Shown here: positions 734-49,784 of the stretch, one piece after another
Position numbering within the stretch: position 1 is the first letter of the stretch
Layout: each line of letters begins with the position of its first letter
Source of the DNA: Kofleriaceae bacterium
Lineage (GTDB): Bacteria; Myxococcota_A; Polyangia; Haliangiales; Haliangiaceae
DNA: 64,000 bases
Assembly (NCBI GenBank): GCA_025357755.1
Contig: JANXOP010000163.1
Location: 1 to 64,000 of the forward strand
Direction of reading: 5' to 3'
Notes under the pieces: model-generated
Told to the model about the DNA's origin: nothing
Database searches by the model: none
The model's input: only the letters and a program-made list of their open reading frames with translations
Made by a program: the position numbers and the translations under genes

Positions 734-1359
734 AGCCGCTCGAACGGTTCGTTGACGATCTCGAGCGAGTAGTCGAACCACTCGTTCACGAGCTCGGCCG
801 TGCTCGGCTCGCAGTACACGCGGCCGCACCCTTCGCCGAGCGTGATCCGGATCGCGCCGTGCTGGCCCGTGCGCGTGAACACGACCGAGCGCAGGTTGCC
901 CGCGGTCCAGGTCTCGTCGACCGATTCGCCATCGAGCTCGCCGTGGTGCACGCCCTCGAAGCCCTCGGCCGGCGCAGGCAAGCGATCGAAGAACACGCGG
1001 TGGACATCGACGACGATGTTGCGCGGCGAGAACGCGACCGGCGGACCGGCGTACTGCTCGAAGTGGATGAGGCCGCCCTTCTGCGTGATCTTGAACGCCT
1101 TCACGTTCATCGGGCCGAACCCGAGGATCAGGAGCTCGGCACCCTGCTTCTGGACGACCGTGTCGAGCTCGGCGCTGACCGGTGTGCCCTCGGGCGACTT
1201 CGCGTGGACCGTGAGGGTCTGGCGTACGAAGAAGTCGTGCGGCAGCTGCGCCGGATCGCGGAGCGTGCCGGGATAGGCAGCGGGGGCGCTCGTCGAGATC
1301 TCGACCGGGCCAGGCGCGGCATGTCCGCATGCTGCGAGCAGGATCCACGCGTATCTCAT
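730..1359 (-). CDS. DUF3261-type outer-membrane lipoprotein of aryl-polyene cluster
   Basis: This 209-residue lipoprotein starts with MRYAWILLAACGHA, a short signal peptide with lipobox LAAC at the +1 cysteine. The rest is soluble and beta-rich, with motifs such as AELLILGFGPMNVKAF and a Cys pair in GCGRVYC. It fits the DUF3261 lipoproteins that sit beside the LolA-like and MMPL genes in aryl-polyene clusters, where they are thought to help place the pigment lipid in the outer membrane. ATG 1359 overlaps the MMPL stop (ATGA) and the stop overlaps the COG4648 start (GTGA). Confidence 0.75.
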   Translation of the reverse strand: MRYAWILLAACGHAAPGPVEISTSAPAAYPGTLRDPAQLPHDFFVRQTLTVHAKSPEGTPVSAELDTVVQKQGAELLILGFGPMNVKAFKITQKGGLIHFEQYAGPPVAFSPRNIVVDVHRVFFDRLPAPAEGFEGVHHGELDGESVDETWTAGNLRSVVFTRTGQHGAIRITLGEGCGRVYCEPSTAELVNEWFDYSLEIVNEPFERL

Positions 1360-35231: not shown

Positions 35232-35999
35232 TCAGTGACCAGGACGCGGCGCGTTCGCCCAGTCCTCGACCACTTCGTCGGCGCCGCAGCGGGCGGTGTA
35301 CTGCTCGCCGAACTCGCGCGCCTCGGAGCTGAGGCCATCGAGCACCATCAGCCGCACCAGATCGTGCGCGGCAAACGGGATGCATCGATCGCCGAGCTCG
35401 CTGCGTAGAAACGCGATCCGCGACTTGCGCGCGCTCGACACCGCGTGGAGCTCGCGGCGCATCACTTCGTGCTGGGTCGGCTTGCTGACCGGCAGCGTCC
35501 CGACGAACCACGCGCCCAGCGACATCGCGAGCGCGATCACGACGCCTCCGATCACGAGCTGGTGGTGGTGCTTCTTGTTGCCGATCGGCAGATGCGTGAG
35601 CCCGGCCGTGCGCTGCGCGATGCCGCGCCAATCGGCACCCGGCACGGCGAGCTTGAGCTCGGCGACCGCGCGCTTCGCTTCATCGATCGCGATCGGATCG
35701 ACCCGCACCGCTTCGCTGTCGGTCGCGGCGCGCTTCACGTGCGGGCGCATCTCGTCGTACGCGATCGTGTTCGCACCGCGCTTGGCGAGCTCGCGACGCG
35801 CGCGATCGAGGTGACGCCAGATCTCCGGATACGTATCGTGAACCTCGTGCACCGCGCGCCAACGATCGGTGGCGGGAGTCGCGGTCACGGTCACCCGAGC
35901 CGCGGCGCGGTCGCAATTGTCGACCAGTGCTTCACCGATCAGGATCGCGCCGACTGCGCGGTCGTGTTCGTCGAGTGACTGCGCACGGTCGCGGTACAT
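35232..35999 (-). CDS. Single-span membrane protein, unknown
   Basis: This 255-residue protein has a helical soluble N-terminal part (about 1-135) and one membrane helix (about 147-165, VIGGVVIALAMSLGAWFVG). A C-terminal extracytoplasmic part with two cysteines (about 210 and 240) follows. I recognise no domain. It is convergent with the solute-binding operon (one base between stops) and divergent from the M48 peptidase gene. A longer in-frame start near 36104 is possible but runs through the peptidase gene's promoter. Confidence 0.65.
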   Translation of the reverse strand: MYRDRAQSLDEHDRAVGAILIGEALVDNCDRAAARVTVTATPATDRWRAVHEVHDTYPEIWRHLDRARRELAKRGANTIAYDEMRPHVKRAATDSEAVRVDPIAIDEAKRAVAELKLAVPGADWRGIAQRTAGLTHLPIGNKKHHHQLVIGGVVIALAMSLGAWFVGTLPVSKPTQHEVMRRELHAVSSARKSRIAFLRSELGDRCIPFAAHDLVRLMVLDGLSSEAREFGEQYTARCGADEVVEDWANAPRPGH

Positions 36000-36039
36000 G
36001 TCTTCCAGTGTTTCGGATGATCGGCACCATGGCAAGCCG

Positions 36040-36045
36040 TAAGAT
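36040..36045 (+). promoter_or_regulatory. -10 element TAAGAT, leaderless start of M48 peptidase
   Basis: TAAGAT is followed by seven bases and ATG 36053, deciding among three in-frame ATGs. Confidence 0.6.
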
Positions 36046-36052
36046 GAGCGCC

Positions 36053-36910
36053 ATGACGGACGAGGCCACGGGCGACGGCAAGAGGAAGCGCAAGCTCCGG
36101 ACACTCGGCAAGCTCGACGTCGAGACGTTCCGCCACCCCAGCGACGCCAAGGCCACCGATGCGTTGAAGAAAATCCCGGGGCTCGACAAGGTCCTGGCCA
36201 AGATCCTCGAGTACGGCCTCGAACGGCTCTACTACGTCGATAACACCGCCTCGAACCTCCGGGTCACGCCAAAGATGTTTCCGCGGCTCTACAAGAGCCT
36301 GACCTGGGCGACCAAGATCCTGGATGTCCCCGAGCCCGAGATGTACGTGAAGCTCGACCCGGTCCCGAATGCGTGGACCTACGGGCACACCAAGCCGTTC
36401 ATCACGCTGACGTCCGCGCTGATCGACGTGATGAGCGACGAGGAGCTGTTCTTCATCATCGGCCACGAGGTCGGGCACATCAAGGCGGGGCACGTGCTCT
36501 ACGGCACGATGGCTCGCAACATCGCGGCGATCGTCGCGATGCTCGGCCAGGCGACACTCGGCATCGGCGCGTGGGTCGGTCAGGGACTCGTGATCGGGTT
36601 GATGGAGTGGTACCGCTGCGCGGAGCTCACTTCGGATCGCGCGGCGCTGCTGTGCGTGCAGGACCTCGAGCCCGCGCGCGATACGTTCATGAAGCTCGCG
36701 GGGGGCACGACGCGGCTCGCCGCCGAGATGGATCGCGGCGAGTTCCTGCGCCAGGTCCAGGAGTATCAAGAGGTCGATCGCTCGACGCTTGACAAGGCGT
36801 ACAAGGTGCTACTCACGATCGAGCGCACGCACCCGTTCGCGATGCAGCGCGCGAAGGAGCTCGAGCTCTGGTTCGAGTCCGGCTACCAAGACCTGATGCC
36901 GCGCGATTGA
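36053..36910 (+). CDS. M48-family zinc metallopeptidase
   Basis: This 285-residue protein has zinc-binding HEVGH (138-142) and a downstream E-x3-D motif AELTSD (E191 third ligand, D195), as in HtpX/Ste24-type M48 peptidases. Hydrophobic stretches lie near 150-185, but the large membrane segments of HtpX are missing, so it resembles the shorter cytosolic or peripheral M48 proteins of myxobacteria. A basic N-terminus precedes it. The substrate is unknown. The start was chosen by the TAAGAT hexamer seven bases upstream. Confidence 0.88.
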   Translation: MTDEATGDGKRKRKLRTLGKLDVETFRHPSDAKATDALKKIPGLDKVLAKILEYGLERLYYVDNTASNLRVTPKMFPRLYKSLTWATKILDVPEPEMYVKLDPVPNAWTYGHTKPFITLTSALIDVMSDEELFFIIGHEVGHIKAGHVLYGTMARNIAAIVAMLGQATLGIGAWVGQGLVIGLMEWYRCAELTSDRAALLCVQDLEPARDTFMKLAGGTTRLAAEMDRGEFLRQVQEYQEVDRSTLDKAYKVLLTIERTHPFAMQRAKELELWFESGYQDLMPRD

Positions 36911-36994
36911 ATACTCCGGGACGCGAGGCGTTCGATCGCTCGCCAGTCGAGTCGGCTACTTGGCGCTGGCACGAGCAGTGCTCTTCCTGGCTGC

Positions 36995-37192
36995 ATGCGT
37001 AGCCATCCACTCCTGACCATCCCCGCGTCCTTCCTCGTCGACGTCACCGGCGGTTGCCACAAGGGCTGCCAGCCGGCGGCACAGCAGCAGCAGCAGCCTT
37101 CACAGCGCCACGCCGAGGTGACCGTCGGTACCGGCCAGGTCGGCGGCCAGCTGATCCAGCAAGCGCTCGGCGGCGCAGCGCCGACCGCGTAG
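36995..37192 (+). CDS. Double-glycine leader peptide P3 (LVDVTGG leader, Cys/Gln-rich core)
   Basis: This 65-residue predicted secreted peptide has a 20-residue leader ending in LVDVTGG (Leu -7, Val -4, Gly -2, Gly -1). That is the standard recognition pattern for C39-peptidase ABC exporters, and it is the same LxxVTGG seen at 43390 and 45821. The predicted core starts CHKGC, has a run of five Gln, then HAEVTVGTGQVGG and an Ala-rich end. Third codon positions are almost all G or C, as in real genes here. No -10 or ribosome site is obvious at ATG 36995. It is convergent with an exported beta-barrel-like protein gene. Confidence 0.6.
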   Translation: MRSHPLLTIPASFLVDVTGGCHKGCQPAAQQQQQPSQRHAEVTVGTGQVGGQLIQQALGGAAPTA

Positions 37193-37205
37193 CGCCTCCC
37201 GTGGT

Positions 37206-37907
37206 TCAGGGAGAGAACACGAGCGGCGTGCGGAACGTGAGGCCCGCACCGGCGTGGAACATGCCGACATCCGCGACGGTGTCGCGCGCACCGGCTTCGA
37301 TATACACGCCGATCGCGTACGCGCCGAGGAACACGCCGCGCGGTTCGATGCCGACGCCGCTCACGAAGAGCTCTGCACTCAAGCGACCGGTCACGCCGAA
37401 CCCATCCTTGGTCTCGCCGAACGCGCTGCTCTGCAGATACTCTCCGCGACCCGCGGCCCACACGCGCGCGAAGTCACCTCGCACGAGCGTGTGCCCGACT
37501 TCGAGATACGCGCCGCCCATCGAGACGCCGGTACCAGTCGTCATCGACGGATCGTTCGGCGCCGACATGAATGCGCCGAACAAGCCGATGCCGACGTCGG
37601 TATCGGTGGGCTTGGGCGACAGCGACGCCCAGTGCACTCCGATCGCGATGCCGACGCCGGGCGCGTAGCCGTGCGTCGTGTTGATCCCGGTCTCACCGAT
37701 ATCGATCTTGAGCGGCAGCATCACGCGCGGGCCAGGCCGCCGGCGATAACCGACTCCGCTAGCGGGTGCGCCGCCTTCGGCGCGATGATCGCGAACCTCG
37801 GGGGCCGCGGGCGCGTCGTTGCTGCGGTGATCGCGAACTTCACCTTCGGCGAAGGCAGGAGCGGCCACAGCCGCGAGAGCGAGAGCGACATAAGCAATGC
37901 GAGTCAT
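37206..37907 (-). CDS. Exported protein, probable small outer-membrane beta-barrel
   Basis: This 233-residue protein has a signal peptide ending APAFA. A short linker with two EVRDHR repeats (about 23-44) follows, then alternating Gly/aromatic-rich strands (GVGIAIGVHW, GVSMGGAYLEVGH, GVFLGAYAIGVYIEAG), ending in a Phe-containing strand as outer-membrane barrels often do. It is convergent with the double-glycine peptide gene P3, leaving 13 bases between stops. No family was recognised. Confidence 0.65.
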   Translation of the reverse strand: MTRIAYVALALAAVAAPAFAEGEVRDHRSNDAPAAPEVRDHRAEGGAPASGVGYRRRPGPRVMLPLKIDIGETGINTTHGYAPGVGIAIGVHWASLSPKPTDTDVGIGLFGAFMSAPNDPSMTTGTGVSMGGAYLEVGHTLVRGDFARVWAAGRGEYLQSSAFGETKDGFGVTGRLSAELFVSGVGIEPRGVFLGAYAIGVYIEAGARDTVADVGMFHAGAGLTFRTPLVFSP

Positions 37908-38012
37908 AGGTGAGCTGGCCTATTCCACCAAGCGTGCCACCGCGAACTCCGCGCAATTGCTGGCGCCCCAGCCCGACCCGATCGTGAACGCCGGTTGATG
38001 GCGTGCCGAAAC

Positions 38013-38705
38013 CTAGGTGCTGCGGGTCGACCACCAGCGCTGCCACGCGGCGGCGTCGGTGCCGAAATCGCGACCGCGTGCGAACGAGCGCAGCGATTCG
38101 ACCGCGTTGCTGCGGACGTATTCATCGCTGTCGGCGAGCGCCGCGATCAGCGCGGGCACGGCGGCGGCGGGGTCTTGGTGCTGTAACAAGATCGCCGCGC
38201 TCCGCCGATCGAGGTCCTGGCCGTGCGCGACGAGATCCGTGAATAGCGAGGCCGCCTGGGGCGAGGCCACCACGCCGAACCCGTTCATCGCGGCGACGCG
38301 AACCTTCTCGGGCAGCGCGTGATCGGTGATCCGCGCGGCCATGTCCTGCGCCGAGACCTGGCCATCGCGATAGAGCTCGCCGAGTCCGATCGTCGCGACG
38401 ATCGCCGTGCCGAGATCGCTATCGTGCGACGCCGCGAGCAGCGTCGCGGGATCCTTGGCATCGCTCGCGACGAGCTCGCGCATCGCCGCGATCCGGACCT
38501 TCGGATCGCGATCCTGTAGATCGCGCGCGAGCCCCGGCGCGACGGCGGGTCGGGTGAGCGCGGGCGTGCGCACCACGGGGATCGTGCGCGGTGCTTCGGC
38601 TGGCGCCGTCGCGATCACCGGGGCGGCCTTTGTCGCGTGCCCGAGCCACACGCCGGTCGCGACGAGTGCGCCGGCTGCCACCGCGAGGAGCGCGAGCTGC
38701 TTCAC
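38013..38705 (-). CDS. HEAT-repeat protein with N-terminal anchor
   Basis: This 230-residue protein has an N-terminal hydrophobic anchor (about 2-20). It then has helical HEAT-like repeats: DRDPKVRIAAMRELV, PEKVRVAAMNGFGVV and DSDEYVRSNAVESLRSF. Such scaffolds bind proteins. It is the last gene of the operon 40416-38013, coupled by a GTGA junction to the repeat protein upstream. Confidence 0.75.
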   Translation of the reverse strand: MKQLALLAVAAGALVATGVWLGHATKAAPVIATAPAEAPRTIPVVRTPALTRPAVAPGLARDLQDRDPKVRIAAMRELVASDAKDPATLLAASHDSDLGTAIVATIGLGELYRDGQVSAQDMAARITDHALPEKVRVAAMNGFGVVASPQAASLFTDLVAHGQDLDRRSAAILLQHQDPAAAVPALIAALADSDEYVRSNAVESLRSFARGRDFGTDAAAWQRWWSTRST

Positions 38706-40204
38706 TCGATGCTCACGCAGCAGCGCCCGTACGACGAGGTCGACGTCGCGCGCGATGCCTCTGGCGATTCGGCGGTCGTCGAGGTGACGTAGAGCGCCGT
38801 GCCGACGGCATCCTGATCGCCGATCCAGTCCAGGAACAGGGTGTCGGTCGTCGGTGCGGCCGAGGCCAGGATCGCGCGGACCTCGGGCGAGCTGCACAGA
38901 TGGGCGCCGAGCGTCGCGCAGCGATTCGAGGCGCCGGTGAACGTGAGGCCCGCGGTGTCGGAGGCCTCGGTGCAGAACGCGGCGCCGACCTTGACGTAGC
39001 CGGTCGGGCAGCCTCGATTCGTGACGCGCTGGCCGTTCATGTTGAGCGTGCCCGACAGCGTGCCGCCGGTGAGCATCAGGTAGCGACCGTCGGTGTACGC
39101 GGTGTCGAGTCCGACCGTGTCAGCCTGGACCACGATGCCGACGCCCGCACCGACATTCATCGTCGCCGCGCCACTCGTCGCTCCGCCGCTGAGGCCCGTG
39201 CCCGCGACGACGCTCGTGATCGTACCGCCCGAGTTCGTATCGAGATCCGGCGAGCACGTCCAGGTCGTGCCGCTCCACTTGAGCAGCTCGCCCGCACCAC
39301 ACGTCGTCGGCAAGGACAGCATCACGTTGCCGGTCGTGCCGCCACCGATCAGGCCAGGGCCGGCGGTGACCCCCGTGATCGTGCCGCCGGAGTTCGTGTC
39401 GACATCGCTCGCGCAGCCCCACGTCGAGCCGGTCCACTTCAACATCTGGCCGGTCGCACACGTGTTGACGAGCGACAGCGTCACCGCGCCCGTCGTGCCG
39501 CCGCCCATCAGGCCGCTGCCCGCGAGGACCGAGGTGATATCGCCCGAATCGTTGTCGGCGCCGCACGCCCAGCCCGCGCCGTTGAACTTCAAGATCTGCC
39601 CCGTCGCGCAGCTCATCAAGCCGAGCGTCGCGTCGCCCGCGGTCGCGCCGCCGACGAGGCCACTCGAGGCGATCACCGCGGTGATATCGCCGGTCGCCGC
39701 GCTATCGGCTTCGCACACGATCGCGCCGTTCGTGATGTTCTGGATGTGCTGACCGTTGTTGCAGCTGCCGGTGATCTTGGGCTGGAGCTGATCCGCGGTC
39801 ATGCCGCCGACCGCATCGGCATTCGCCGCGGCGGTCGAGCGCACCGCGTAGGGCACGCTATCGAGCGCGATCCGCGGCGCCATCGTCGCGCCATCGACCG
39901 TGATCTCGAGGAAGCGATCCGTGCCGTCGAACACGTGCCCGTCGAGCGGCGTGGTCTCCCCGAGCTCGACGAAGACGAGGCCATCATCGGCGATCGTCAC
40001 CGAGTGGGTCTCGGTCCAGACCGAGTGACCTGCATCCTGCGCATCGAACAGCGTGAACAACACGTCGTGCGTGCCGGTCTTGGCTTCGGCGCTCTTGTCA
40101 TCGACCAGGCGCGCGGTGAACGCGACGGTGCCGGGCACGTCGGTCGCGTGCGCGGTCGTGACGAGCGCGAGCACGATCGCGACGGCGAAGGCGACGCGGT
40201 TCAC
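38702..40204 (-). CDS. Exported repeat protein, tail-fibre/collagen-like
   Basis: This 500-residue protein has a signal peptide ending TTAHA. An N-terminal beta-domain (about 20-120, including ALDSVPYAVRSTAA, common in myxobacterial and planctomycete surface proteins) is followed by about 3.5 tandem repeats of roughly 50 residues. Each repeat runs G-x-I-T-x-V-x-A-G-x-G-L-x-G-G, then CATGQxLKWxGxxWxC. A terminal domain with six or more cysteines (GCPTGYVKVG, LGAHLCSSPEV, GRCCVSIE) completes it. It probably forms an extracellular trimeric or lectin-like surface structure. GTG 40204 overlaps the upstream lipoprotein stop; the longer in-frame region before it is shadow. Confidence 0.78.
   Translation of the reverse strand: MNRVAFAVAIVLALVTTAHATDVPGTVAFTARLVDDKSAEAKTGTHDVLFTLFDAQDAGHSVWTETHSVTIADDGLVFVELGETTPLDGHVFDGTDRFLEITVDGATMAPRIALDSVPYAVRSTAAANADAVGGMTADQLQPKITGSCNNGQHIQNITNGAIVCEADSAATGDITAVIASSGLVGGATAGDATLGLMSCATGQILKFNGAGWACGADNDSGDITSVLAGSGLMGGGTTGAVTLSLVNTCATGQMLKWTGSTWGCASDVDTNSGGTITGVTAGPGLIGGGTTGNVMLSLPTTCGAGELLKWSGTTWTCSPDLDTNSGGTITSVVAGTGLSGGATSGAATMNVGAGVGIVVQADTVGLDTAYTDGRYLMLTGGTLSGTLNMNGQRVTNRGCPTGYVKVGAAFCTEASDTAGLTFTGASNRCATLGAHLCSSPEVRAILASAAPTTDTLFLDWIGDQDAVGTALYVTSTTAESPEASRATSTSSYGRCCVSIE
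39152..39691 (-). repeat. Tandem coding repeat, about 3.5 units of 49-54 codons
   Basis: Successive units begin GDITAV, GDITSV, TITGVT and TITSVV and share a Cys-x6-LKWxGxxWxC segment. They diverge at the DNA level, so this is an old protein repeat rather than a fresh satellite. Confidence 0.7.
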
Positions 40205-40416
40205 GGGATCACCGGCGAAGCCGACTTCATGACGAGGCCCGTGGTCTTGGTCGGCTTCTGCGAGAACGTGTGACCGATCGAGACGTCCATCCGCATGCCT
40301 CCACCCTTCACGCTGCCCGCGCCACTCACCACCTCGTGCGAGGCGCGGACGGATCCATCCTCTTTTTTCGCGGTCGCGCATCCAGCACACACGATCACCA
40401 CCAACAGAAGCTTCAT
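40201..40416 (-). CDS. Small lipoprotein
   Basis: This 71-residue protein has signal peptide MKLLLVVIVCAGC (lipobox CAGC) and a short Gly/Lys/Ser-rich mature part. I recognise no family. It precedes the repeat protein with a GTGA overlap. TAGTGT, ten bases upstream of the ATG, includes the TAG stop of the gene before it. Confidence 0.65.
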   Translation of the reverse strand: MKLLLVVIVCAGCATAKKEDGSVRASHEVVSGAGSVKGGGMRMDVSIGHTFSQKPTKTTGLVMKSASPVIP

Positions 40417-40429
40417 AGTGGCGCGGACA

Positions 40430-41047
40430 CTACTCGAAACTCCCCGTCCCTGCGAGATCGAGTGCGAGGTCCGAGATCCGGACCAGGGAGGCCCAGCTCC
40501 ACAGCTCACCGGCACCATGCAGCTCGAGTGCGGCGTCGATCGCGCTGCCAGATCCAGTCAGTTCCACATCCATTGAAATTGTCGGCAGATGCTGGACGCC
40601 GAGCGGGGTCGAACCACCGCCGATCGTGATCGACCAGGCGAGGTCGAGATCGAGCGCCAGCGTCGCCGTCGCCTCGTCCGCGGTCGTCCACGTAGGCGCC
40701 GCGCTCGAGGCTCTGGCGAGCGTGACCCGGACGCCAGTCAGGCTCGCCGGCTGGGCGAAGACCGCGGCAGGGAGCTCGACCGGATCGAGCGAGACCCCGA
40801 ATGCGTCGACGACGAGGGTGTCGCCGACCAACGACGCGACCAGGGCGCCGGTCGAGATCGTGATGCTGGCACCCCCGCCCACCCAGCTGTCGCCGGTGGC
40901 CCGGTGTTCGGCATCGAGCGAGCCCGTGCCGGTGATCGCGAACCGGAGCGGGCTCGCCGAGAGCCGGTCGTGGATCGAGAGCGGCGGGTCGGGAGGGACG
41001 GCGACGGCGCAGCCCAGGGTCGAGATCAGCAGGAGCACTCGCATCAT
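40430..41047 (-). CDS. Lipoprotein, unknown beta-rich family
   Basis: This 205-residue protein has signal peptide MMRVLLLISTLGC with lipobox TLGC. The mature part is Ala/Ser/Thr/Gly-rich with repeated short strands (SITISTGALVASLVGDTLVVDAFG). No family was recognised. Two adjacent ATGs (41047, 41044) are possible starts. It sits 13 bases upstream of the small lipoprotein and may be co-transcribed. The 128 bases before it hold nothing I can assign. Confidence 0.65.
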   Translation of the reverse strand: MMRVLLLISTLGCAVAVPPDPPLSIHDRLSASPLRFAITGTGSLDAEHRATGDSWVGGGASITISTGALVASLVGDTLVVDAFGVSLDPVELPAAVFAQPASLTGVRVTLARASSAAPTWTTADEATATLALDLDLAWSITIGGGSTPLGVQHLPTISMDVELTGSGSAIDAALELHGAGELWSWASLVRISDLALDLAGTGSFE

Positions 41048-41175
41048 GCGTCGCGCATCAGCACTGATCGTGCCCACGCCGCGTCTACGCTGCGCGCGAT
41101 CGAGTGCGCCATGTCCGCACGATGCTGGCTAACCGGACAGCCGGTACCTAGCTTCGGCTCCGGTCGCCCGCTCGG

Positions 41176-42246
41176 CTAGCGCGCTTCGAACGCGACCGAC
41201 CACAGAAAATCGGTCGGGATGTGACCCGCGAAGTACGGGTCGTCGCTCTTCAAGCGTGTACGCGTCACCGGCAGATAATCCGCGGCACCGACGACCGCGC
41301 GCTGGTGACAGGTCACGCAGTTCGACTGCAAGCCATCCGGAAACCGCGCCTCGAGCCACGGGTTGAAGCACGGCGTGCCCGCCGAGTAGGTCACGTCCAT
41401 CAGGTAGTTCGCGGCGGCCCCGTGCAACTCCGGCTTGCCCGCGGCGAACCGGCCTTCGGTCGGCGCGTCGTGCCACCAGTAGGTCTGCCACGTCCAATCG
41501 GGAATCTCTTTCGTGGAGACGTGCGCCGCGACGAGCGCGACGTGATCACCCGCGACGAGCGAGGGATCGTGGGTCGCCCGGCGCGCGCTCTCGAGATCCT
41601 CCGCGACGAGATCGCGCACGAGGAACGCCGACAGCGGACGGACCTTCGCGCTGAACGCGTGGCCACCGAGCGTGACGTCCGCGAGCTCGCCGTCGGGGAT
41701 CACGGTGCGATCCGGATCGACCGCGATCGCGCGCTGCCACGTCCGATCGGGATTGCCGTCGGCATCGGGCTGCGCGGGCTCGCCATCCCAGATCGGCATC
41801 GCGGTCAGCCCGTGCGCGTGGACCGCGTACCACGTGAGCTTCACCGCGGTGGCGTCGGTCGGGAAGGCGGGGAGCTCGGCGAGCGTGTCGAGCACCTCGC
41901 GCTCGGCGAGGTGCTGGACCCTGACGTGGCGCGCGGCATGTGGATCGAACAGCACGTCGAACATCACCGGCAGGGTCTCGGCCTCGATCGCGTCGCCGTT
42001 GCGAAACGGGCGCGGTGTCCGGAATTTCGGGCGCGCGACGGGCTTTGCCGCGAACATCTGTTCGGTCGCGGGCCAGTGCTCCCACGCGAGGTGCTCGCCG
42101 CCCGCGAGGTGTTGCCACAGCTCCCAGCCATGAGCGCGCATCGCCACGAGATCGCCGCGATCACGATCACCGAGCAACGCCTCCTGAAGCGTCGTCGGAG
42201 CGGGTGTACACGCACTCACGCAGATCGCGAGCGATACGAAGCGCAT
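41176..42246 (-). CDS. Lipoprotein with a single c-type heme motif
   Basis: This 356-residue protein has signal peptide MRFVSLAICVSAC (lipobox VSAC). Near the C-terminus it has one covalent-heme motif CVTCH in SNCVTCHQRAV, with a possible distal Met not obvious. The body contains many Trp and His residues. Such proteins act as periplasmic or surface electron carriers or peroxidase-like enzymes, but the family is not recognised. TATAGT lies nine bases before the ATG and is shared as a palindromic ACTATA box with the divergent acetyltransferase gene. Confidence 0.7.
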   Translation of the reverse strand: MRFVSLAICVSACTPAPTTLQEALLGDRDRGDLVAMRAHGWELWQHLAGGEHLAWEHWPATEQMFAAKPVARPKFRTPRPFRNGDAIEAETLPVMFDVLFDPHAARHVRVQHLAEREVLDTLAELPAFPTDATAVKLTWYAVHAHGLTAMPIWDGEPAQPDADGNPDRTWQRAIAVDPDRTVIPDGELADVTLGGHAFSAKVRPLSAFLVRDLVAEDLESARRATHDPSLVAGDHVALVAAHVSTKEIPDWTWQTYWWHDAPTEGRFAAGKPELHGAAANYLMDVTYSAGTPCFNPWLEARFPDGLQSNCVTCHQRAVVGAADYLPVTRTRLKSDDPYFAGHIPTDFLWSVAFEAR

Positions 42247-42255
42247 TTCGATGAC

Positions 42256-42261
42256 ACTATA
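42256..42261. promoter_or_regulatory. Shared divergent -10 region ACTATA/TATAGT
   Basis: The minus strand reads TATAGT nine bases before ATG 42246. The plus strand reads TATACG from 42258, five bases before ATG 42269. The two start codons are only 22 bases apart. Confidence 0.45.
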
Positions 42262-42268
42262 CGGCGTG

Positions 42269-42940
42269 ATGCGATTCTTCACCGCCGATTATGTCGAGCG
42301 CGCGATCTTGCGCGACGGCTCGACGGCGTTGATCCGGCTCGTCGCGCCTGACGACAAGCAGCTGTTGCGTCACGAGTTCGAGCGCTGGTCGCCCGCGTCG
42401 CGCTACGCCCGGTTCCTCGCACCGAAGCAAGCGCTGACCGAGGACGAGCTCGAGTACTTGTGCGTGCTCGATCAAGAGACCCACTTCGCGATCTGCGCGG
42501 TCGCCGAGAGCGGTGACGGCACGGGAGAGCCGGTCGGTCTCGGCATCGCCCGGTTCATCCGCCTGCCCACGATCCCACTCGAACCGGTCACCGCCGAGGC
42601 CGCCATTGGGGTCGCCGATGCCGCGCATCGCAAGGGCTTGGGGCAGCTGCTGCTGATGCGGCTGTGCGCCGCGGCGGCCGAGCGCGAGATCGAGCGGTTT
42701 CGTTGCGAGGTGCTGGTCGAGAACATCTCGATGCAGGAGCTCATCAAGGTGATCGCGCCCGCGTCCACGACCACCACGCGCCACGGCGTGCTGACGATCG
42801 ACTTCGCGATCGAAGCGATCGCACCCGACGCGCCACTCACGCATCCCGTCCGGGAGAACGCGCTCAATCGGTTCTTCCGCGCCGCTGCCGAGAACACCGT
42901 GGAGTGGACCGACGCGGTGCGAAAGTTCTGGCGACGCTAG
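42269..42940 (+). CDS. GNAT-family N-acetyltransferase
   Basis: This 223-residue protein has a GNAT domain. The acetyl-CoA pyrophosphate loop appears as HRKGLGQLL (R-x-x-G-x-G/A), preceded by a strand EAAIGVADA. The C-terminal third is unusual for GNATs and has no recognised domain. The substrate is unknown. The start could be ATG 42251 or 42269; I prefer the latter because the promoter with the divergent gene falls between them. Stops overlap the convergent OsmC gene by four bases. Confidence 0.78.
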   Translation: MRFFTADYVERAILRDGSTALIRLVAPDDKQLLRHEFERWSPASRYARFLAPKQALTEDELEYLCVLDQETHFAICAVAESGDGTGEPVGLGIARFIRLPTIPLEPVTAEAAIGVADAAHRKGLGQLLLMRLCAAAAEREIERFRCEVLVENISMQELIKVIAPASTTTTRHGVLTIDFAIEAIAPDAPLTHPVRENALNRFFRAAAENTVEWTDAVRKFWRR

Positions 42941-43377
42941 AGCAGCTTCGCGGTCATCGTGATCGGCGTCGCGGCGAGTGCCTTCGAGACCGGGCAGTTC
43001 TTCTTCGCCGTCTCCGCGAGCTCCTGGAACTTCGCCGCATCGGCGCCCGGCACGGTACCCGTGACCTCGAGATGGATCGCGGTGACAGCCCAACCCGCAT
43101 CCTGCTTGTCCATCGACACGGTCGCGGTGGTCTCGAGCGTGGTCGGCTCGAGGTTCGCGCCGGTGAGCTGGAACGCGAGCGCCATCGTGAAGCACGACGC
43201 ATGCGCCGCGCCGATCAGCTCCTCGGGGTTCGTCCCGGCCTTGCCGTCCTCGGCAACGAAGCGACTGTTCACGCTGTAGGGCAGGTCTTTGAGCGCGCCC
43301 GAGAGCGTCGAGATCGTGCCGTTGCCTTTGGGACCATTGCCGTGCCAGACGGCGTTTCCGGTTCGTTTGAGCGTCAT
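42937..43377 (-). CDS. OsmC-family peroxiredoxin
   Basis: This 146-residue protein has the two family cysteines in AAHASCFTMAL (about residue 62) and NCPVSKAL (about residue 128), plus the conserved Arg in the N-terminal SRFVAEDG. OsmC proteins reduce organic hydroperoxides and hypochlorite using lipoylated partners. It lies downstream of the double-glycine peptide P1 in the same direction, with its own strong TATAAC box six bases before the ATG. Confidence 0.93.
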   Translation of the reverse strand: MTLKRTGNAVWHGNGPKGNGTISTLSGALKDLPYSVNSRFVAEDGKAGTNPEELIGAAHASCFTMALAFQLTGANLEPTTLETTATVSMDKQDAGWAVTAIHLEVTGTVPGADAAKFQELAETAKKNCPVSKALAATPITMTAKLL

Positions 43378-43383
43378 GCCGCC

Positions 43384-43389
43384 GTTATA
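43384..43389 (-). promoter_or_regulatory. -10 element TATAAC of the OsmC gene
   Basis: TATAAC directly follows the stop of peptide P1 and is followed by six bases and ATG 43377. Confidence 0.5.
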
Positions 43390-43695
43390 TCAGCTGACGC
43401 GCGTCCAACCATTCGGCGTGACCTGGCCAACCGGCGTCTCGGCAGCCGGCGGTGCAGACGATCCATGATTCATCATCATCATCATCATCATCGGCATCAT
43501 GTCGGACATCCCGCCGCTGCTCTGCTGGCTCGTCGCGAGGCCTTGGATCGATGACAACAGCGACGTCAACGCGGCCTCGATCGTCGAGCTCGAATCGGTG
43601 GCTGCGCTCGTCACCCCGCCGGTGACGGAGCCGAGCTCGGCGGCATCGATCGTTGGCAGTTCGGGCGTCACGGAATCATGGGGGAGCTTGGACAT
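43390..43695 (-). CDS. Double-glycine leader peptide P1 (LGSVTGG leader, Met-run core)
   Basis: This 101-residue predicted secreted peptide has a 27-residue leader ending ELGSVTGG, with Glu -8, Leu -7, Val -4 and GlyGly at -2/-1, the classic C39-exporter signal. The core has a Ser/Thr-rich start, an amphipathic segment IEAALTSLLSSIQGL and a Gln/Ser linker. A Met-rich run (MSDMMP followed by seven Met and NHG) and the tail TPNGWTRVS complete it. The segment before the Met run resembles that of P2. A GAGG ribosome site lies nine bases before the ATG. A mature product of about 74 residues is expected; no exporter gene is nearby. Confidence 0.7.
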   Translation of the reverse strand: MSKLPHDSVTPELPTIDAAELGSVTGGVTSAATDSSSTIEAALTSLLSSIQGLATSQQSSGGMSDMMPMMMMMMMNHGSSAPPAAETPVGQVTPNGWTRVS

Positions 43696-43704
43696 CTGCG
43701 TGGA

Positions 43705-43708
43705 CCTC
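43705..43708 (-). promoter_or_regulatory. Ribosome-binding site GAGG of peptide P1
   Basis: GAGG is nine bases before ATG 43695, in contrast to the leaderless starts around it. Confidence 0.45.
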
Positions 43709-43848
43709 GGTGGTGGTGGTGATTCCTGTGGAGAGCAGTCCGCGTGCCATGGGTGACACCTCGTGGATCCAAGGGCTTGCGCGAATCGCTCACCCCTCGT
43801 CCCCGACTGAAGCCCCCACCTCGTCTACCGCGGGAGACACGCGAGGCG

Positions 43849-43854
43849 TAGAGT
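43849..43854 (+). promoter_or_regulatory. -10 element TAGAGT, leaderless start of PAS kinase
   Basis: TAGAGT is followed by seven bases and GTG 43862. Confidence 0.55.
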
Positions 43855-43861
43855 CTTCCAG

Positions 43862-45298
43862 GTGGTGGGCGACGCTGGGTATCGAGCGATGTTCGAGGTG
43901 AACACCGCGATCAAGCTCTTAATCGATCCGGAGTCCGGTGCGATCGTCGACGCGAATCCCGCGGCGGCCGCGTTCTACGGCTGGCCCGTCGATCAGCTGC
44001 GCGGGATGCCAATCTCGCAGCTCAATCAGCTGGCGAGCGACGAGCTTCGCCACCAGCTCCATCAAGCCGCGACGACGACCGCGGCGCCGGCGCTGCACTT
44101 CAAGCATCGCCTCGCGGATGGATCGGTGCGCGATGTCGAGGTCCACAGTGGCCCGATCGTGCTCGAGGGTCGCACGCTGCTGTTCTCGATCATCCACGAC
44201 ATCAGCGAGCGCATCGTGCTCGAAGAGAGGCTGCGGCGCACCCAGCGCCTCGATGCGATCGGGCGACTCGCCGCTGGCGTCGCGCACGACTTCAACAACT
44301 TGCTCGCGGTCTCGCTCGCCTCGGTCGAGCTCGCCGAACGCAAGCTCGGCCCCGATCATCCCGCGCTCGTCCACCTCGACGATGTCAAGCGCACGGTGCG
44401 GCACGGCGCCGAGCTCACGCAACAGATGCTCGTGTTCGCTCGTCAAGGCGACCTCGAGCCGACCCGCGTCGAGATTCGCACCTTGATCGCGCAGACCGCG
44501 GAGCTGTTGCGCTCGGTGCTCGGCGACAAGATCTCGGTCACGACAGAGCTGGCCCCGACGCTGCCGGCGGTACGCATCGATCCGGGCAAGCTCGAGCTCG
44601 CCTTCATCAACATCGCGCTCAACGCGCGCGACGCGATGGCGAAGGGTGGGCGATTCACGATCTACGCGAAGCTCGTCGACGACGGTAGGATCTGCATCAC
44701 GCTCGAAGACACCGGCTGCGGCATGGATTCGCGGACCCGGACGCGCGCGTTCGAGCCGTTCTTCACGACCAAGAACCTCGCGGGCAATTCCGGGCTCGGT
44801 CTCGCGGCGGTGTACGGCCTGATCAAGCAATCCGGTGGCGACGTCACGCTCGAGAGCACGGTCGGGGTGGGCACGCTCGTCCACATCACGCTGCCGCCGC
44901 ACGAGCGCTTCACGCCGGTCTCGATGACCGTACCGTCAGCGCCGCGCGTGATCATGCTCGTCGACGATCGCGACGACGTGCGCCGTGCGCTGGCGATGGC
45001 GCTCGAGGATGCCGGCTTGATCGTGCACACCGCGGGGAGTGCCGTGGAAGCGATCGCTGCGCTCGTCGAGCTGCGCGGTTCCCTCGATGCGGTGATCTCG
45101 GATGTCGCGATGCCGGAGCGCTCCGGTGTCGAGCTCGCCGGAGATATCCGGACGCGCTGGCCCGGGCTCCCGGTGATCTTGATGTCGGGCCATCGCTACG
45201 CACCGACGACCGCGGCGATCTCGGGCTGGCTCGCGAAGCCGTTCTCGATCGAGGAGGTGCTCGTGATGCTCGAGCGCGTCAGCCGCAAGCAGCGTTAG
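43862..45298 (+). CDS. Hybrid sensor kinase: PAS, histidine kinase, receiver
   Basis: This 478-residue soluble protein has one PAS domain (about 8-120) and HisKA with [12 protein letters not shown] (phospho-His near 140). The HATPase follows with NIALNARDAM, DTGCGMD and GNSGLGLA, then a receiver with Asp in VISDVAMPE and the conserved Lys in LAKPFS. The layout matches the kinase at 17755 minus two PAS domains. It has no DNA-binding output, so a separate regulator must receive the signal. It is divergent from peptide P1 with 166 bases between, making it a candidate regulator of that peptide (inference). Confidence 0.9.
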   Translation: MVGDAGYRAMFEVNTAIKLLIDPESGAIVDANPAAAAFYGWPVDQLRGMPISQLNQLASDELRHQLHQAATTTAAPALHFKHRLADGSVRDVEVHSGPIVLEGRTLLFSIIHDISERIVLEERLRRTQRLDAIGRLAAGVAHDFNNLLAVSLASVELAERKLGPDHPALVHLDDVKRTVRHGAELTQQMLVFARQGDLEPTRVEIRTLIAQTAELLRSVLGDKISVTTELAPTLPAVRIDPGKLELAFINIALNARDAMAKGGRFTIYAKLVDDGRICITLEDTGCGMDSRTRTRAFEPFFTTKNLAGNSGLGLAAVYGLIKQSGGDVTLESTVGVGTLVHITLPPHERFTPVSMTVPSAPRVIMLVDDRDDVRRALAMALEDAGLIVHTAGSAVEAIAALVELRGSLDAVISDVAMPERSGVELAGDIRTRWPGLPVILMSGHRYAPTTAAISGWLAKPFSIEEVLVMLERVSRKQR

Positions 45299-45314
45299 CC
45301 CGCGTTAGCCAGCG

Positions 45315-45785
45315 CTACACATCGACGTCGAAGCTCTGCCCGGCCGCGCCGGGCGTGGGCGGTGGCGGCGGACCCTTGCGCAGCTGCTGGAAGGTCTCCT
45401 CGAGATCTTGGGTCTCGACCTCGACCGTGAGGCCGGCGAGCGCTGACGCGGGCAGCTTCAGCGCTCCGGCGAGTGCGCGCAGGTAGTCGTCCTCGGAGAA
45501 ATCGATCTCCTCGTCCGCCTCGATCACCGCGCTGACCAGGAACAGCAGCTTCTTGCGATCGTCTTCGCTGTCGCCCGCGAACTCCGCCGCGACCTTGTTC
45601 AGATCGAACGTCTTCGGATCGAAGCCCGCGATCTCGACCTCGACTTCGGTCGGAAGCTCGCTGCAGAGGTCCTCGAGGAGCGCGCGCACTTCGTCGCGCT
45701 CTTTGTCGTGGAGCTCGTTGTCCGCGTACGCCGCGCCGAGGAGGAGTTGCGTGAGCGGGAGGATTCGATCCACGTCGATCGCCAT
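45315..45785 (-). CDS. TerB-like protein
   Basis: This 156-residue soluble helical protein has the TerB/DjlA-type pattern: YADNELHDKERDEVRALL near the N-terminus and a second copy SAVIEADEEIDFSEDDYLRAL. These resemble the acidic metal-binding turns of the tellurite-resistance TerB fold. A Pro-rich C-terminal tail follows. Function is unclear in most bacteria. Two in-frame ATGs exist (45791, 45785). TAAGAT overlaps the bases just before the first and lies six bases before the second, so I chose 45785. Confidence 0.78.
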   Translation of the reverse strand: MAIDVDRILPLTQLLLGAAYADNELHDKERDEVRALLEDLCSELPTEVEVEIAGFDPKTFDLNKVAAEFAGDSEDDRKKLLFLVSAVIEADEEIDFSEDDYLRALAGALKLPASALAGLTVEVETQDLEETFQQLRKGPPPPPTPGAAGQSFDVDV

Positions 45786-45791
45786 CGCCAT

Positions 45792-45797
45792 ATCTTA
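45792..45797 (-). promoter_or_regulatory. -10 element TAAGAT, leaderless start of TerB-like gene
   Basis: TAAGAT is followed by six bases and ATG 45785, favouring the second of two in-frame ATGs. Confidence 0.55.
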
Positions 45798-45820
45798 GAC
45801 TCCTCGCGCCACCGGAAGGG

Positions 45821-46156
45821 CTACCAGCGGCCGCGAAACGAGAAGCCGCCGTGGCCACCGCCACCGCCGTTGTAGTTCACCGTGACTTCGCTGCGGTTGC
45901 GCATCGCCATCGCCATCCCGAACATCAGCATGTTCGAGCCGCTGAACAGGCCGTTGTTGTTGCGATGGCTGAGGTCCTTGATCGAACCGGCGATGCTGTT
46001 GAGCGAGGTCTGCAGGCCGTCGCTGATGCCCGAAGAGCTCGAGCTGGTGCCGCTGGTCGGGCCGATCGGGCCAAGCGTGGGCGAGCTCGAGGTCGAGGTC
46101 GAGGTGACGGTGCCGCCGGTGACAGTTTCGAGGTCGAGGATCGAGATGTCTTGCAT
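45821..46156 (-). CDS. Double-glycine leader peptide P2 (LETVTGG leader, Met/Gly-rich core)
   Basis: This 111-residue predicted secreted peptide has a short 15-residue leader, MQDISILDLETVTGG, with Leu -7, Val -4 and GlyGly -2/-1. The core is Ser/Thr-rich, then ISDGLQTSLNSIAGSIKDL, related to the equivalent segment of P1. An Asn-rich linker, a hydrophobic Met-rich segment MLMFGMAMAM, EVTVNY and a Gly/His/Arg-rich tail ending FRGRW follow. A canonical AAGGAG ribosome site lies nine bases before the ATG. It is divergent from a small outer-membrane-type protein gene and follows the TerB-like region. Confidence 0.72.
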   Translation of the reverse strand: MQDISILDLETVTGGTVTSTSTSSSPTLGPIGPTSGTSSSSSGISDGLQTSLNSIAGSIKDLSHRNNNGLFSGSNMLMFGMAMAMRNRSEVTVNYNGGGGGHGGFSFRGRW

Positions 46157-46171: not shown

Positions 46172-46314
46172 GGGAACTCCCTAGAGCAGGCCTCGTGCCA
46201 GCCCGCTTCGGGCCGTATGTCCGCGAGATCCTCGACGATCGCCGATCGGCGTCGATCGGGAACTGCTGCCCCGAAGGTGACATCCCGAATACTCGAGGAT
46301 ACGCTGGCCGCGAC

Positions 46315-46902
46315 ATGCGACTCCTCGATGTGACGTTACCCGTGGCGGTCGGCCTGATGAGCGTGATGGGTGGTGCGGCGCATGCCGAGACGTTCGGCGA
46401 GGTCCAGGCAGGCATCGCGAATCCGATCGGCAATAGTGACTGGACGAACCTGGTCTCCACGAGCTTCAAGCTCGCGGGCCGGCTCGGGTTCACGGTTCCG
46501 CAAGGCATCGGCGCCGCGCTCCAGCTCGACTGGACGCCGATCAACATCAACGGCAATACGTTTCCGGGTGTCGACGTCTCGGCGTACCGGATCCGGCTGC
46601 TCCCGAACTTCGTCTATCACCATCCGATCGCGCCGAAGGTCAGCCTCAGCGCGCGCGTCGGGGTCGGCATCGACTACGTCCACGAGTCGGTCACCGCCCT
46701 CAACACGACCTCGACCACGAGCGATACCGCGTTCGCGTTCGAGCTCGGTGGCGGCCTCTGGTACGACCTGGGCTCGGCCGAGATCGGTGGCGAGCTCGCA
46801 CTCCCGATCAGCTCGCACTCCGACAAGAACGGCGCGCACTACTCGAGCTACGACATCGACATCCTGATCGGTCTGCGCTTCACGGCTGACCGCGGGCGCT
46901 AG
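46315..46902 (+). CDS. Exported outer-membrane beta-barrel-like protein
   Basis: This 195-residue protein has a signal peptide ending GGAAHA. Alternating amphipathic strands with Gly and aromatic residues follow (FGEVQAGIANPIG, LSARVGVGIDYVHES, ELGGGLWYDLG), ending in DILIGLRFTAD. This is the layout of small OmpW/OmpA-type barrels. TACGCT lies nine bases before ATG 46315. It is divergent from double-glycine peptide P2, and its stop overlaps the convergent class V aminotransferase gene. Confidence 0.75.
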   Translation: MRLLDVTLPVAVGLMSVMGGAAHAETFGEVQAGIANPIGNSDWTNLVSTSFKLAGRLGFTVPQGIGAALQLDWTPININGNTFPGVDVSAYRIRLLPNFVYHHPIAPKVSLSARVGVGIDYVHESVTALNTTSTTSDTAFAFELGGGLWYDLGSAEIGGELALPISSHSDKNGAHYSSYDIDILIGLRFTADRGR

Positions 46903-48824: not shown

Positions 48825-49784
48825 CTAGCAGGTCAACACGATCTTGCCGAAGCCCTGATTGCTCGCCATGTGCTCGTGCGCCTTGCCGGCCTCGGCGAGC
48901 GGGAACACGCGATCGATCACGGGCTTGATCGTGCCGCGTGCGAGGAGCGGCACGACCTGGTCTTCGAACACGCGCATCGCCGCGATCTTCTCCTCGAGCG
49001 GGCGCGCGCGCAGCATCGTACCGGTGACCTGCACGCGCTTGCGCAAGATCGCGCCGATGTCGGTCTCGGTCTTGCCGCCCGCGAGCAGGCCCACGATCAC
49101 GATCCGGCCCTTGAGCTGGATACAGCGCAGATCCTCGGCGAAGTAGTCGCCACCGATCAGCTCGAGGATCACGGCTGGTGCCGGAATCTTGTCGGCAAAC
49201 TTGGCGTTCTCGGCGACGACGCCGACATCGAGGCCGAGCGCCTTGCAGCGGGCGATCTTGTCGGCGGTTCGTGCGGTGCCCACCACGGTGCAGCCGAGCG
49301 CGCGACCGAGCTGGATCGCGGCGGTCCCGACGCCGCTGCCGCAGCCGTTCACGAGCATCACTTCGCCGGTACGCAGGTTCGCCTGCATCATCGCGTCGTA
49401 CGCGGTGATGAAGGCCTCCGGAACCGCGGCCGCGTCCTCGAACGAGACGCCATCCGGAATCTTCGCGAGCGCGCGCTCGTGCGAGGTCACGGCCTCGGCG
49501 TAGCCGCCACCGCCGACCAGCCCGAACACCCGGTCACCGACCTTCCAGCGCTGGACGTCGGGGCCGAGCGCTTCGACCTCGCCGGAGATCTCGAGCCCCG
49601 GGATGTCGGGTGGGGCATCGAAGGGTGCCGGATAAGCACCCATCCGCTGTAGCAAATCCGCTCGATTGATCGCGGTGGCGCGGATCCGCACGCGGACCTC
49701 GCCGCGCGACGGTTCGGGACTCTGTTTCTCGACGAGAACTAGTGTGTCCGGACCGCCTGGCTTCGTGATCGAGATAGCTCGCAT
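48825..49784 (-). CDS. NAD(P)H quinone oxidoreductase (PIG3-type, MDR family)
   Basis: This 319-residue zinc-free medium-chain dehydrogenase starts MRAISITKPGGPDTL. It has the GroES-like domain (ATAINRADLLQRMGAYP, IPGLEISGEV, GDRVFGLV), the nucleotide-binding loop VNGCGSGVGTAAIQL and the terminal EHMASNQGFGKIVL typical of TP53I3/PIG3-like quinone oxidoreductases. It reduces quinones with NADPH. The ATG is 26 bases from the divergent lipoprotein ATG. Confidence 0.92.
   Translation of the reverse strand: MRAISITKPGGPDTLVLVEKQSPEPSRGEVRVRIRATAINRADLLQRMGAYPAPFDAPPDIPGLEISGEVEALGPDVQRWKVGDRVFGLVGGGGYAEAVTSHERALAKIPDGVSFEDAAAVPEAFITAYDAMMQANLRTGEVMLVNGCGSGVGTAAIQLGRALGCTVVGTARTADKIARCKALGLDVGVVAENAKFADKIPAPAVILELIGGDYFAEDLRCIQLKGRIVIVGLLAGGKTETDIGAILRKRVQVTGTMLRARPLEEKIAAMRVFEDQVVPLLARGTIKPVIDRVFPLAEAGKAHEHMASNQGFGKIVLTC

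Follow-up and report, generated by a model that had tools for sequence, protein, structure and literature searches.

Contig JANXOP010000163.1 (C165) belongs to the 8.6-Mb draft genome of a Kofleriaceae bacterium (assembly GCA_025357755.1; 450 contigs, 89.9% completeness), and its first 64 kb, hereafter the window, contain three small genes, A, B and C, which we consider to be genuine precursor genes of peptides with a double-glycine (GG) leader (Table 1). The handles G, C and L denote genomes, contigs and loci, respectively, and G000 is the genome of the window itself. All three leaders meet the substrate pattern of C39 peptidases, with leucine at -7, a branched residue at -4 and two glycines at -2 and -1; the positions, strands, lengths and leader ends given in the original prediction, which was made from the letters of the window, match the sequence. 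According to our analysis, the three genes are linked by a predicted sigma-54 type promoter and not by the Val-Thr pair that precedes the two glycines, and the precursors are very probably exported and cut by one dedicated C39 machine. We regard it as probable that A, B and C are part of a sigma-54 regulon whose small proteins leave the cell through C39, perhaps a lytic mixture directed at the envelopes of prey or of neighbouring cells. The lytic role taken by itself is a tentative proposal, and export by a C39 system under sigma-54 appears to be much better supported than any role.

Sigma-54 type promoters of the precursor genes

In Myxococcus xanthus, the sigma-54 consensus is TGGCACG-N4-TTGCW (PMC7910581). 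Upstream of the genes of the peptide family described below, a count of 7-mers found TGGCACG 18 times, compared with 0.55 expected. This heptamer corresponds to the -24 half-site of sigma-54 promoters. Candidate sites were scored with a fixed spacing of GG and GC, to a maximum of 15.2. The window contains 37 sites with a score of at least 11, 12 with at least 12 and three with at least 13, the last being exactly those at A, B and C (Table 1). The first base of the A site lies 28 nt from the ATG, which is a leaderless-type spacing.

The same type of site is found throughout the family. A score of at least 12 was reached at 40 of the 61 family genes, a count that takes in B and C (A is a non-member), and a score of at least 13 at 37 of the 61. 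In 100 shuffles, the mean numbers were 1.29 (maximum 5) for at least 12 and 0.15 for at least 13, and among real random windows the two thresholds were reached by 3.9% and 1.85%, respectively. Of the genes that have no site, 13 of 21 lie directly behind another member, compared with 4 of the 40 that have one. Moreover, an export-locus gene is preceded by a site of at least 13.4 in six of the seven main export loci (L086, L087, L089, L091, L094 and L097), and in the seventh locus examined, L096, no site of at least 13.4 was found before the export-locus gene. The export-locus sites often lie 26-30 nt from the ATG. When a looser pattern was applied to the whole genome (L284-L333), 47 sites were obtained, which is below the 138 of the reversed control; in 17 of these 47, the distance to an ATG is exactly 28-29 nt, and many of the genes are secreted or lipoprotein-like. 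The spacing of 28-29 nt suggests leaderless sigma-54 transcripts. In addition, 16 of the 40 family promoters have a GTNACCC upstream of them, in either orientation, compared with 7.3% of random 180-nt windows; this element is a candidate activator site.

These genes resemble the sigma-54 product genes of Myxococcus xanthus in that promoters of the TGGCACG-N4-TTGCW type occur in a myxobacterium. However, the loci of that study encode polyketides and non-ribosomal peptides, with promoters mostly inside genes (PMC7910581), whereas the genes described here encode ribosomally made GG peptides and have their promoters immediately upstream.

B and C as members of one peptide family

Two samples were searched, a family-level sample of 30 genomes from the GTDB family and a wider sample of 282 genomes drawn from the phylum. 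Both B and C have relatives within the genus and the family; homologues of B were found with E values as low as 3.7e-12, and those of C with 2.8e-9 and 3.7e-9. Against the family profile, of which each is itself a row, B gives an E value of 1.6e-23 and C one of 2.6e-13. The cores were examined separately with a profile of the cores alone of 45 members from other genomes and no member from G000; B scored 50.5 bits, C 51.9 and A 0.8, and the best of 900 shuffled cores reached 7.7. B and C were among the seeds with which the members were gathered, so that the scoring is independent of them and the gathering is not. We consider B and C to be one family with homologous cores, and A to lie outside it; the earlier description of all three cores as unrelated thus holds for A and fails for B and C.

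The family profile has 60 matches in 11 of the 30 genomes, five of them in G000. In the phylum draw, matches were found in G000 and G019 alone; no more than 18 candidates were scored in each genome, and some weak members may have been missed. Residues were counted over 62 distinct members. Leucine occupies -7 in 61 of them and valine -4 in 59, where the candidate filter demanded a hydrophobic residue at -7 and a limited residue set at -4. The position of the two glycines is kept in the homologues, as the original prediction had proposed to check. Its proposal that the shared Val-Thr marks the peptide family did not hold, since threonine is present at -3 in just 30 of the 62 members and VTGG also ends the leaders of very different precursors near C39 transporters of Nannocystis and Enhygromyxa. 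The loci concerned (L164, L165, L166 and L169) carry various precursors ending in L..VTGG, some with TTLALGEE-type repeats, which we take to be graspetide-like.

The family leader has about 21 residues and a mean charge of -1.4. It is followed by a linker rich in Ser, Gly and Arg, a helix of the LxxSIxxL type, a Met-rich stretch and, in many members, a tail. At least four Met within some 10 residues are present in 44 of the 62 members, and a C-terminal Trp in 22. The mature parts have a mean length of 71 aa and long tails of low complexity, and their best amphipathic 18-mers are moderately above shuffles (mean z 1.22). An AlphaFold2 (AF2) model of B places helices at residues 35-59 and 66-76 with low confidence (predicted local distance difference test, pLDDT, 64.6; predicted template modelling score, pTM, 0.26).

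Neither Pfam nor NCBIfam gave a match above its curated cut-off for A, B or C, and Rfam gave none at gathering scores within the window. When 19 family members were compared with the libraries, the matches were weak: bacteriocin_sig (E 0.031) and cyan_ocin_like (E 0.017) in one member each, and GET2 in two (best 0.00068). B resembles the graspetide-like precursors of NCBIfam TIGR04497 in its L..VTGG leader end but differs from them in having no TTLALGEE-type repeats. Its assignment to TIGR04497 was rejected at 13.9 bits against a cut-off of 32; matches to this model at E values up to 0.1 were found in two of the 19 members (best 0.0016). Among the open-licence papers surveyed, we found no report of this peptide family or of a link between sigma-54 and double-glycine peptides in Myxococcota.

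Elsewhere in G000, locus L003 (C55, about 1287-1553, minus strand) holds an 88-aa microcin-like GG peptide with the leader end DLDLVTGG and a Gly-rich core; it has no strong sigma-54 site (best score 10.7).

Peptide A and its counterparts

The neighbour of A (35232-36263, minus strand) has homologues of 38-49% identity in G015 and G008, and each of them adjoins a GG peptide. The counterpart in G015 has 91 aa, with the leader end LLLVSGG followed by CGGHRRCCC, and that in G008 has 69 aa, with LETVAGG followed by CKSC. An A-type promoter is placed at 29 nt in G015 and at 31 nt in G008. In our view, A is a genuine gene and represents a second type of precursor, with Cys directly after GG.

The leader motif and the possibility of chance

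A simple objection is that these are chance open reading frames that happen to contain VTGG. Enrichment of the motif in the genome is indeed mild, with 37 matches of the [L/F]xxVTGG DNA pattern in the 8.6 Mb and 25 in the reversed control, and 19 of 30 examined matches lie inside long frames or have no near start. We therefore rejected the motif by itself as evidence. A fourth LxxVTGG in the window, LEVVTGGYNAEYGR (53038-53057, minus strand), was likewise rejected as a leader; it lies inside a long receptor-like frame, presumably TonB-plug-like, and is a decoy for leader searches. Homology, synteny and promoters are the stronger evidence. The cores of B and C are homologous, relatives in synteny exist, sequences of the ribosome-binding type precede 47 of 60 family genes compared with a background of 10%, and the promoters are placed exactly at A, B and C. 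The chance explanation is already refuted for B and C, and for the set as a whole we consider it very improbable.

The C39 exporter locus

The original prediction found no C39 exporter in the window and supposed that the transporter would be encoded elsewhere. Both statements are borne out: the two C39 matches of G000 sit on other contigs, one being a stand-alone frame of 216 aa (C399) and the other a C39 ATP-binding cassette (ABC) transporter with conserved active-site residues (C98). In addition to this transporter, C98 carries HlyD-type adaptor genes, a TolC-type gene, a lipoprotein-like gene and an outer-membrane barrel gene. These names rest on Pfam matches of the G000 copies or of those in G002, and for the barrel also on a predicted model. 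The exporter domains in Pfam are C39-ABC, HlyD and OEP, and the G002 copy of the lipoprotein scores 21.2 bits against Recep_L, just below the cut-off of 21.8. Residues Q37, C43, H116 and D132, which we assume to be catalytic, are unchanged in five transporters. The barrel model (pLDDT 63.1) has 10 C-terminal strands like those of small outer-membrane barrels (OpcA, OmpT) and an N-terminal domain that is unplaced; a comparison of the barrel with PDB sequences gave nothing useful.

C98 breaks off inside the barrel gene, and C153 opens with what appear to be the last codons of this gene; the two contig ends overlap by 16 identical bases. Behind the barrel end, C153 contains three family peptides, another GG-leader peptide and an NrdR-like gene (Pfam). 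The additional peptide (L088, 1751-2071, plus strand), which lies behind the main array, is Gly/Met-rich, has 106 aa and the leader end LQHVIGG, and does not match the family profile (E 2.7). In six other genomes, a peptide array and a main-type transporter are found on one contig, 6.2-7.7 kb apart. Arrays near the C39 exporter hold two to four paralogues; A, B and C lie apart from that locus, as orphans.

The main exporter type (70-83% identical) is present in nine of the 30 genomes, and the peptide family occurs in all nine; among the other 21 it occurs in two, G001 and G004 (P 3.8e-6 for the co-occurrence, with genomes treated as independent). The G014 copy of the transporter is interrupted by a contig end. 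A second type of C39 transporter, which shares about 46% identity with the main one, was set aside as the cognate exporter because its genomes without the main type lack the family; G001 is an exception that has the family, and G004 has the family with neither C39 type recognised. In G012, a transporter of the second type with a GAF-HlyD adaptor (L085; C121, 14682-18682) lies 2.8 kb from a B-like gene.

GG-leader wall hydrolases behind the same promoter type

Promoters of this type also precede genes for GG-leader proteins that resemble cell-wall hydrolases. L309 (G000:C182) encodes a GG-leader SLT-type transglycosylase (Pfam, 24.1 bits over a cut-off of 21.3) with a sigma-54-like site of 14.45, and L340 (G000:C91) encodes a second GG-leader SLT-like protein with a site of 11.45. 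L301 and L303 encode GG-leader proteins behind such promoters that we judged by eye to be M15-peptidase-like and 3D-like; neither has a match in Pfam or PDB. Among the 28 genomes of the hydrolase search, seven of which carry the main exporter type, SLT relatives were found in four and relatives of L301 in two, all with the main exporter type. The hydrolases read, namely the SLT proteins of G000 (two), G012 and G015 and the L301 type of G000 and G008, all have a GG leader and a promoter-like site (11.45-14.45). Because the promoter type is shared with export-locus genes and with a GG-leader SLT protein, we tentatively put an action of the exported mixture on envelopes first among the possible roles.

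The main rival explanation is a surface or biofilm-matrix role, in which paralogous GG proteins would assemble outside the cell and the barrel and lipoprotein would anchor or nucleate them. This explanation would account for arrays of two to four paralogues near a C39 exporter, an outer-membrane barrel gene and a lipoprotein-like gene, for the synteny of orphan loci across species, and for the linkers rich in Ser and Gly and the common C-terminal Trp. It also has a precedent in Synechococcus elongatus, in which the small, cotranscribed GG proteins EbfG1-4 need the C39 peptidase transporter PteB for their secretion (PMC4997328, PMC9981879). As in that system, several small GG proteins without a known domain in the mature part are encoded near a C39 transporter in the main arrays; this likeness is one of description, and we claim no link in sequence. 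Sigma-54 type promoters, the barrel, the lipoprotein-like gene, dispersed orphans and GG-leader hydrolases set the present system apart from EbfG and its biofilm role. The barrel and lipoprotein speak for a function at the cell surface, whereas the co-regulated GG-leader hydrolases favour attack or wall remodelling, and we consider the matrix explanation possible but doubtful.

One-helix proteins and the search for immunity genes

The export set, with a GG leader, a peptidase-containing ABC transporter (PCAT), an HlyD-type adaptor and a TolC-type channel, is also that of class II microcins of the MccV type (PMC10233263). If the peptides were bacteriocins of this class, they would kill close relatives, and the producer would be shielded by small inner-membrane immunity proteins. 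We scanned 11 areas in nine loci (A, B, C and eight arrays) for small membrane proteins. With a ribosome-binding sequence demanded, the scan gave a single, antisense candidate, in L089. This demand misses leaderless genes, and the scan was repeated without it; three of the eight arrays, those of G000 (C153), G014 and G015, were then found to encode small proteins that are homologous to one another, 95-151 aa long and with one hydrophobic stretch at the C terminus (Table 1). The genes for these one-helix proteins have a promoter-like site whose distance to the ATG is 28-33 nt; the proteins match no Pfam family and could be immunity or export accessory proteins. They are a possible microcin-like feature and led us to raise our estimate for the microcin explanation slightly. 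However, no immunity-like gene was found at the thresholds used beside A, B or C, nor any candidate in the other five arrays apart from the antisense one in L089. Moreover, many paralogues are dispersed for each exporter locus, unlike in class II microcins, and the orphan loci are syntenic between species and not cassette-like. The microcin explanation is unlikely in our view.

The Nap peptides of Neisseria provide a further comparison, as they are likewise small peptides with a GG motif, occur together with a C39 peptidase and an export channel in the outer membrane, and have been linked to lysis. They have mature parts of 16-36 aa, take part in autolysis and lie on a horizontally acquired island with a putative immunity gene (PMC11798529), in which they differ from the peptides described here.

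Neighbouring genes

In the window, the starts of C and the divergent barrel gene are 158 nt apart, and a TerB-like gene lies on the other side of C; G012 and G014 have the same gene order. An OsmC gene is likewise near a B-like gene in G012 and G014, and the remaining orphan members have other neighbours that are kept in two to four genomes. Between genomes, the TerB-like and OsmC-like proteins and an oxidoreductase (48825-49784) are 64-79% identical, and the barrel just 36-49%.

Table 1. Coordinates and basis of the features described (window positions unless a locus is named).
Feature	Position	Strand	Basis or remark
A, GG precursor, 65 aa; core begins CHKGC	36995-37192	+	open reading frame, sequence
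Leader of A, 20 aa, end LVDVTGG	36995-37054	+	sequence
Predicted sigma-54 type promoter of A, TGGCACGAGCAGTGCT	36967-36982	+	score 14.15 of 15.2
B, GG precursor, 101 aa; helix plus Met-rich core	43390-43695	-	open reading frame, homologues, family profile
Leader of B, 27 aa, end LGSVTGG	43615-43695	-	sequence
Predicted sigma-54 type promoter of B, TGGCACGCGGACTGCT, 54 nt before ATG	43734-43749	-	score 15.2 of 15.2
C, GG precursor, 111 aa; family of B	45821-46156	-	open reading frame, homologues, family profile
Leader of C, 15 aa, end LETVTGG	46112-46156	-	sequence
Predicted sigma-54 type promoter of C, TGGCACGAGGCCTGCT, 44 nt before ATG	46185-46200	-	score 15.2 of 15.2
OsmC-like protein, 12 nt downstream of B	42937-43377	-	Pfam OsmC, 73.1 bits
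Sensor kinase-response regulator protein, divergent from B, 166 nt off	43862-45298		spacing
TerB-like protein, 29 nt downstream of C	45315-45791	-	Pfam TerB, 38.1 bits
Outer-membrane beta-barrel protein, divergent from C	46315-46902	+	Pfam OMP_b-brl, 30.0 bits
One-helix protein, L088 (G000:C153)	846-1133	+	
One-helix protein, L090	4264-4557	-	
One-helix protein, L091	10806-11261	+	

The sensor kinase-response regulator protein beside B raises the question of whether the peptides are signals for development or kin recognition, which would be released by the PCAT and sensed by a kinase such as this one. Sigma-54 controls growth-transition and development genes in Myxococcus (PMC7910581), which agrees with such a role. 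However, mature parts that average 71 aa and carry long low-complexity tails, and many paralogues in each genome, speak against a signal, and other loci have just generic matches to this kinase (27-29%), of which one is located roughly 1 kb away from the array of G012. We regard the signal explanation as improbable.

Proposed mechanism and significance

According to the explanation that we prefer, in which sigma-54 controls a set of small proteins exported through C39, an activator would open the -24/-12 promoters of A, B and C. The precursors would then be recognised by the C39 domain of the C98 PCAT and cut after the two glycines, and the peptides would exit through the HlyD/TolC tunnel encoded beside it. 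Outside the cell, the helical and Met-rich peptides may disturb membranes, and the hydrolases may cut the wall of neighbouring or prey cells. A more specific version is an attack system switched by sigma-54, in which a starvation or prey signal would lead to type I release, through C39, of helical/Met-rich and Cys-type peptides together with wall hydrolases, which in combination would open other bacteria, with self-protection by the envelope or by the one-helix protein that some arrays carry. We believe that this version is conceivable, although some doubt attaches to it.

Several observations weigh against our explanation. In a search of 36 genomes, A had no homologue by sequence other than itself (best other E 0.0148). 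The genomes are related, and the P value for the co-occurrence of exporter and family is therefore optimistic; moreover, in G001 and G004, which are drafts of 73 and 88% completeness, the family is present and no main-type exporter was detected, and the transporter frame of G015 contains one in-frame TAG. The hydrolases occur in just four of 28 genomes and are not an obligate partner. Their -4 residue is Ala in three and Ser, Val and Pro in one each, and because it is mostly not Val, it is less certain that this PCAT exports the hydrolases, which may be poorer C39 substrates. Finally, sites of the sigma-54 type are found upstream of many further genes, lipoprotein-like ones among them, so that the co-regulation appears to be broad.

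The usual place to look for double-glycine peptides is next to their transporter. In the present case, the putative substrates are scattered and can be found by a promoter signature, hydrolases included. If the explanation is confirmed, these genes would provide a list of candidate secreted effectors, a single machine as a target for deletion and a test of how C39 type I secretion is used in Kofleriaceae, and the rule that combines promoter and leader might extend to other Myxococcota.

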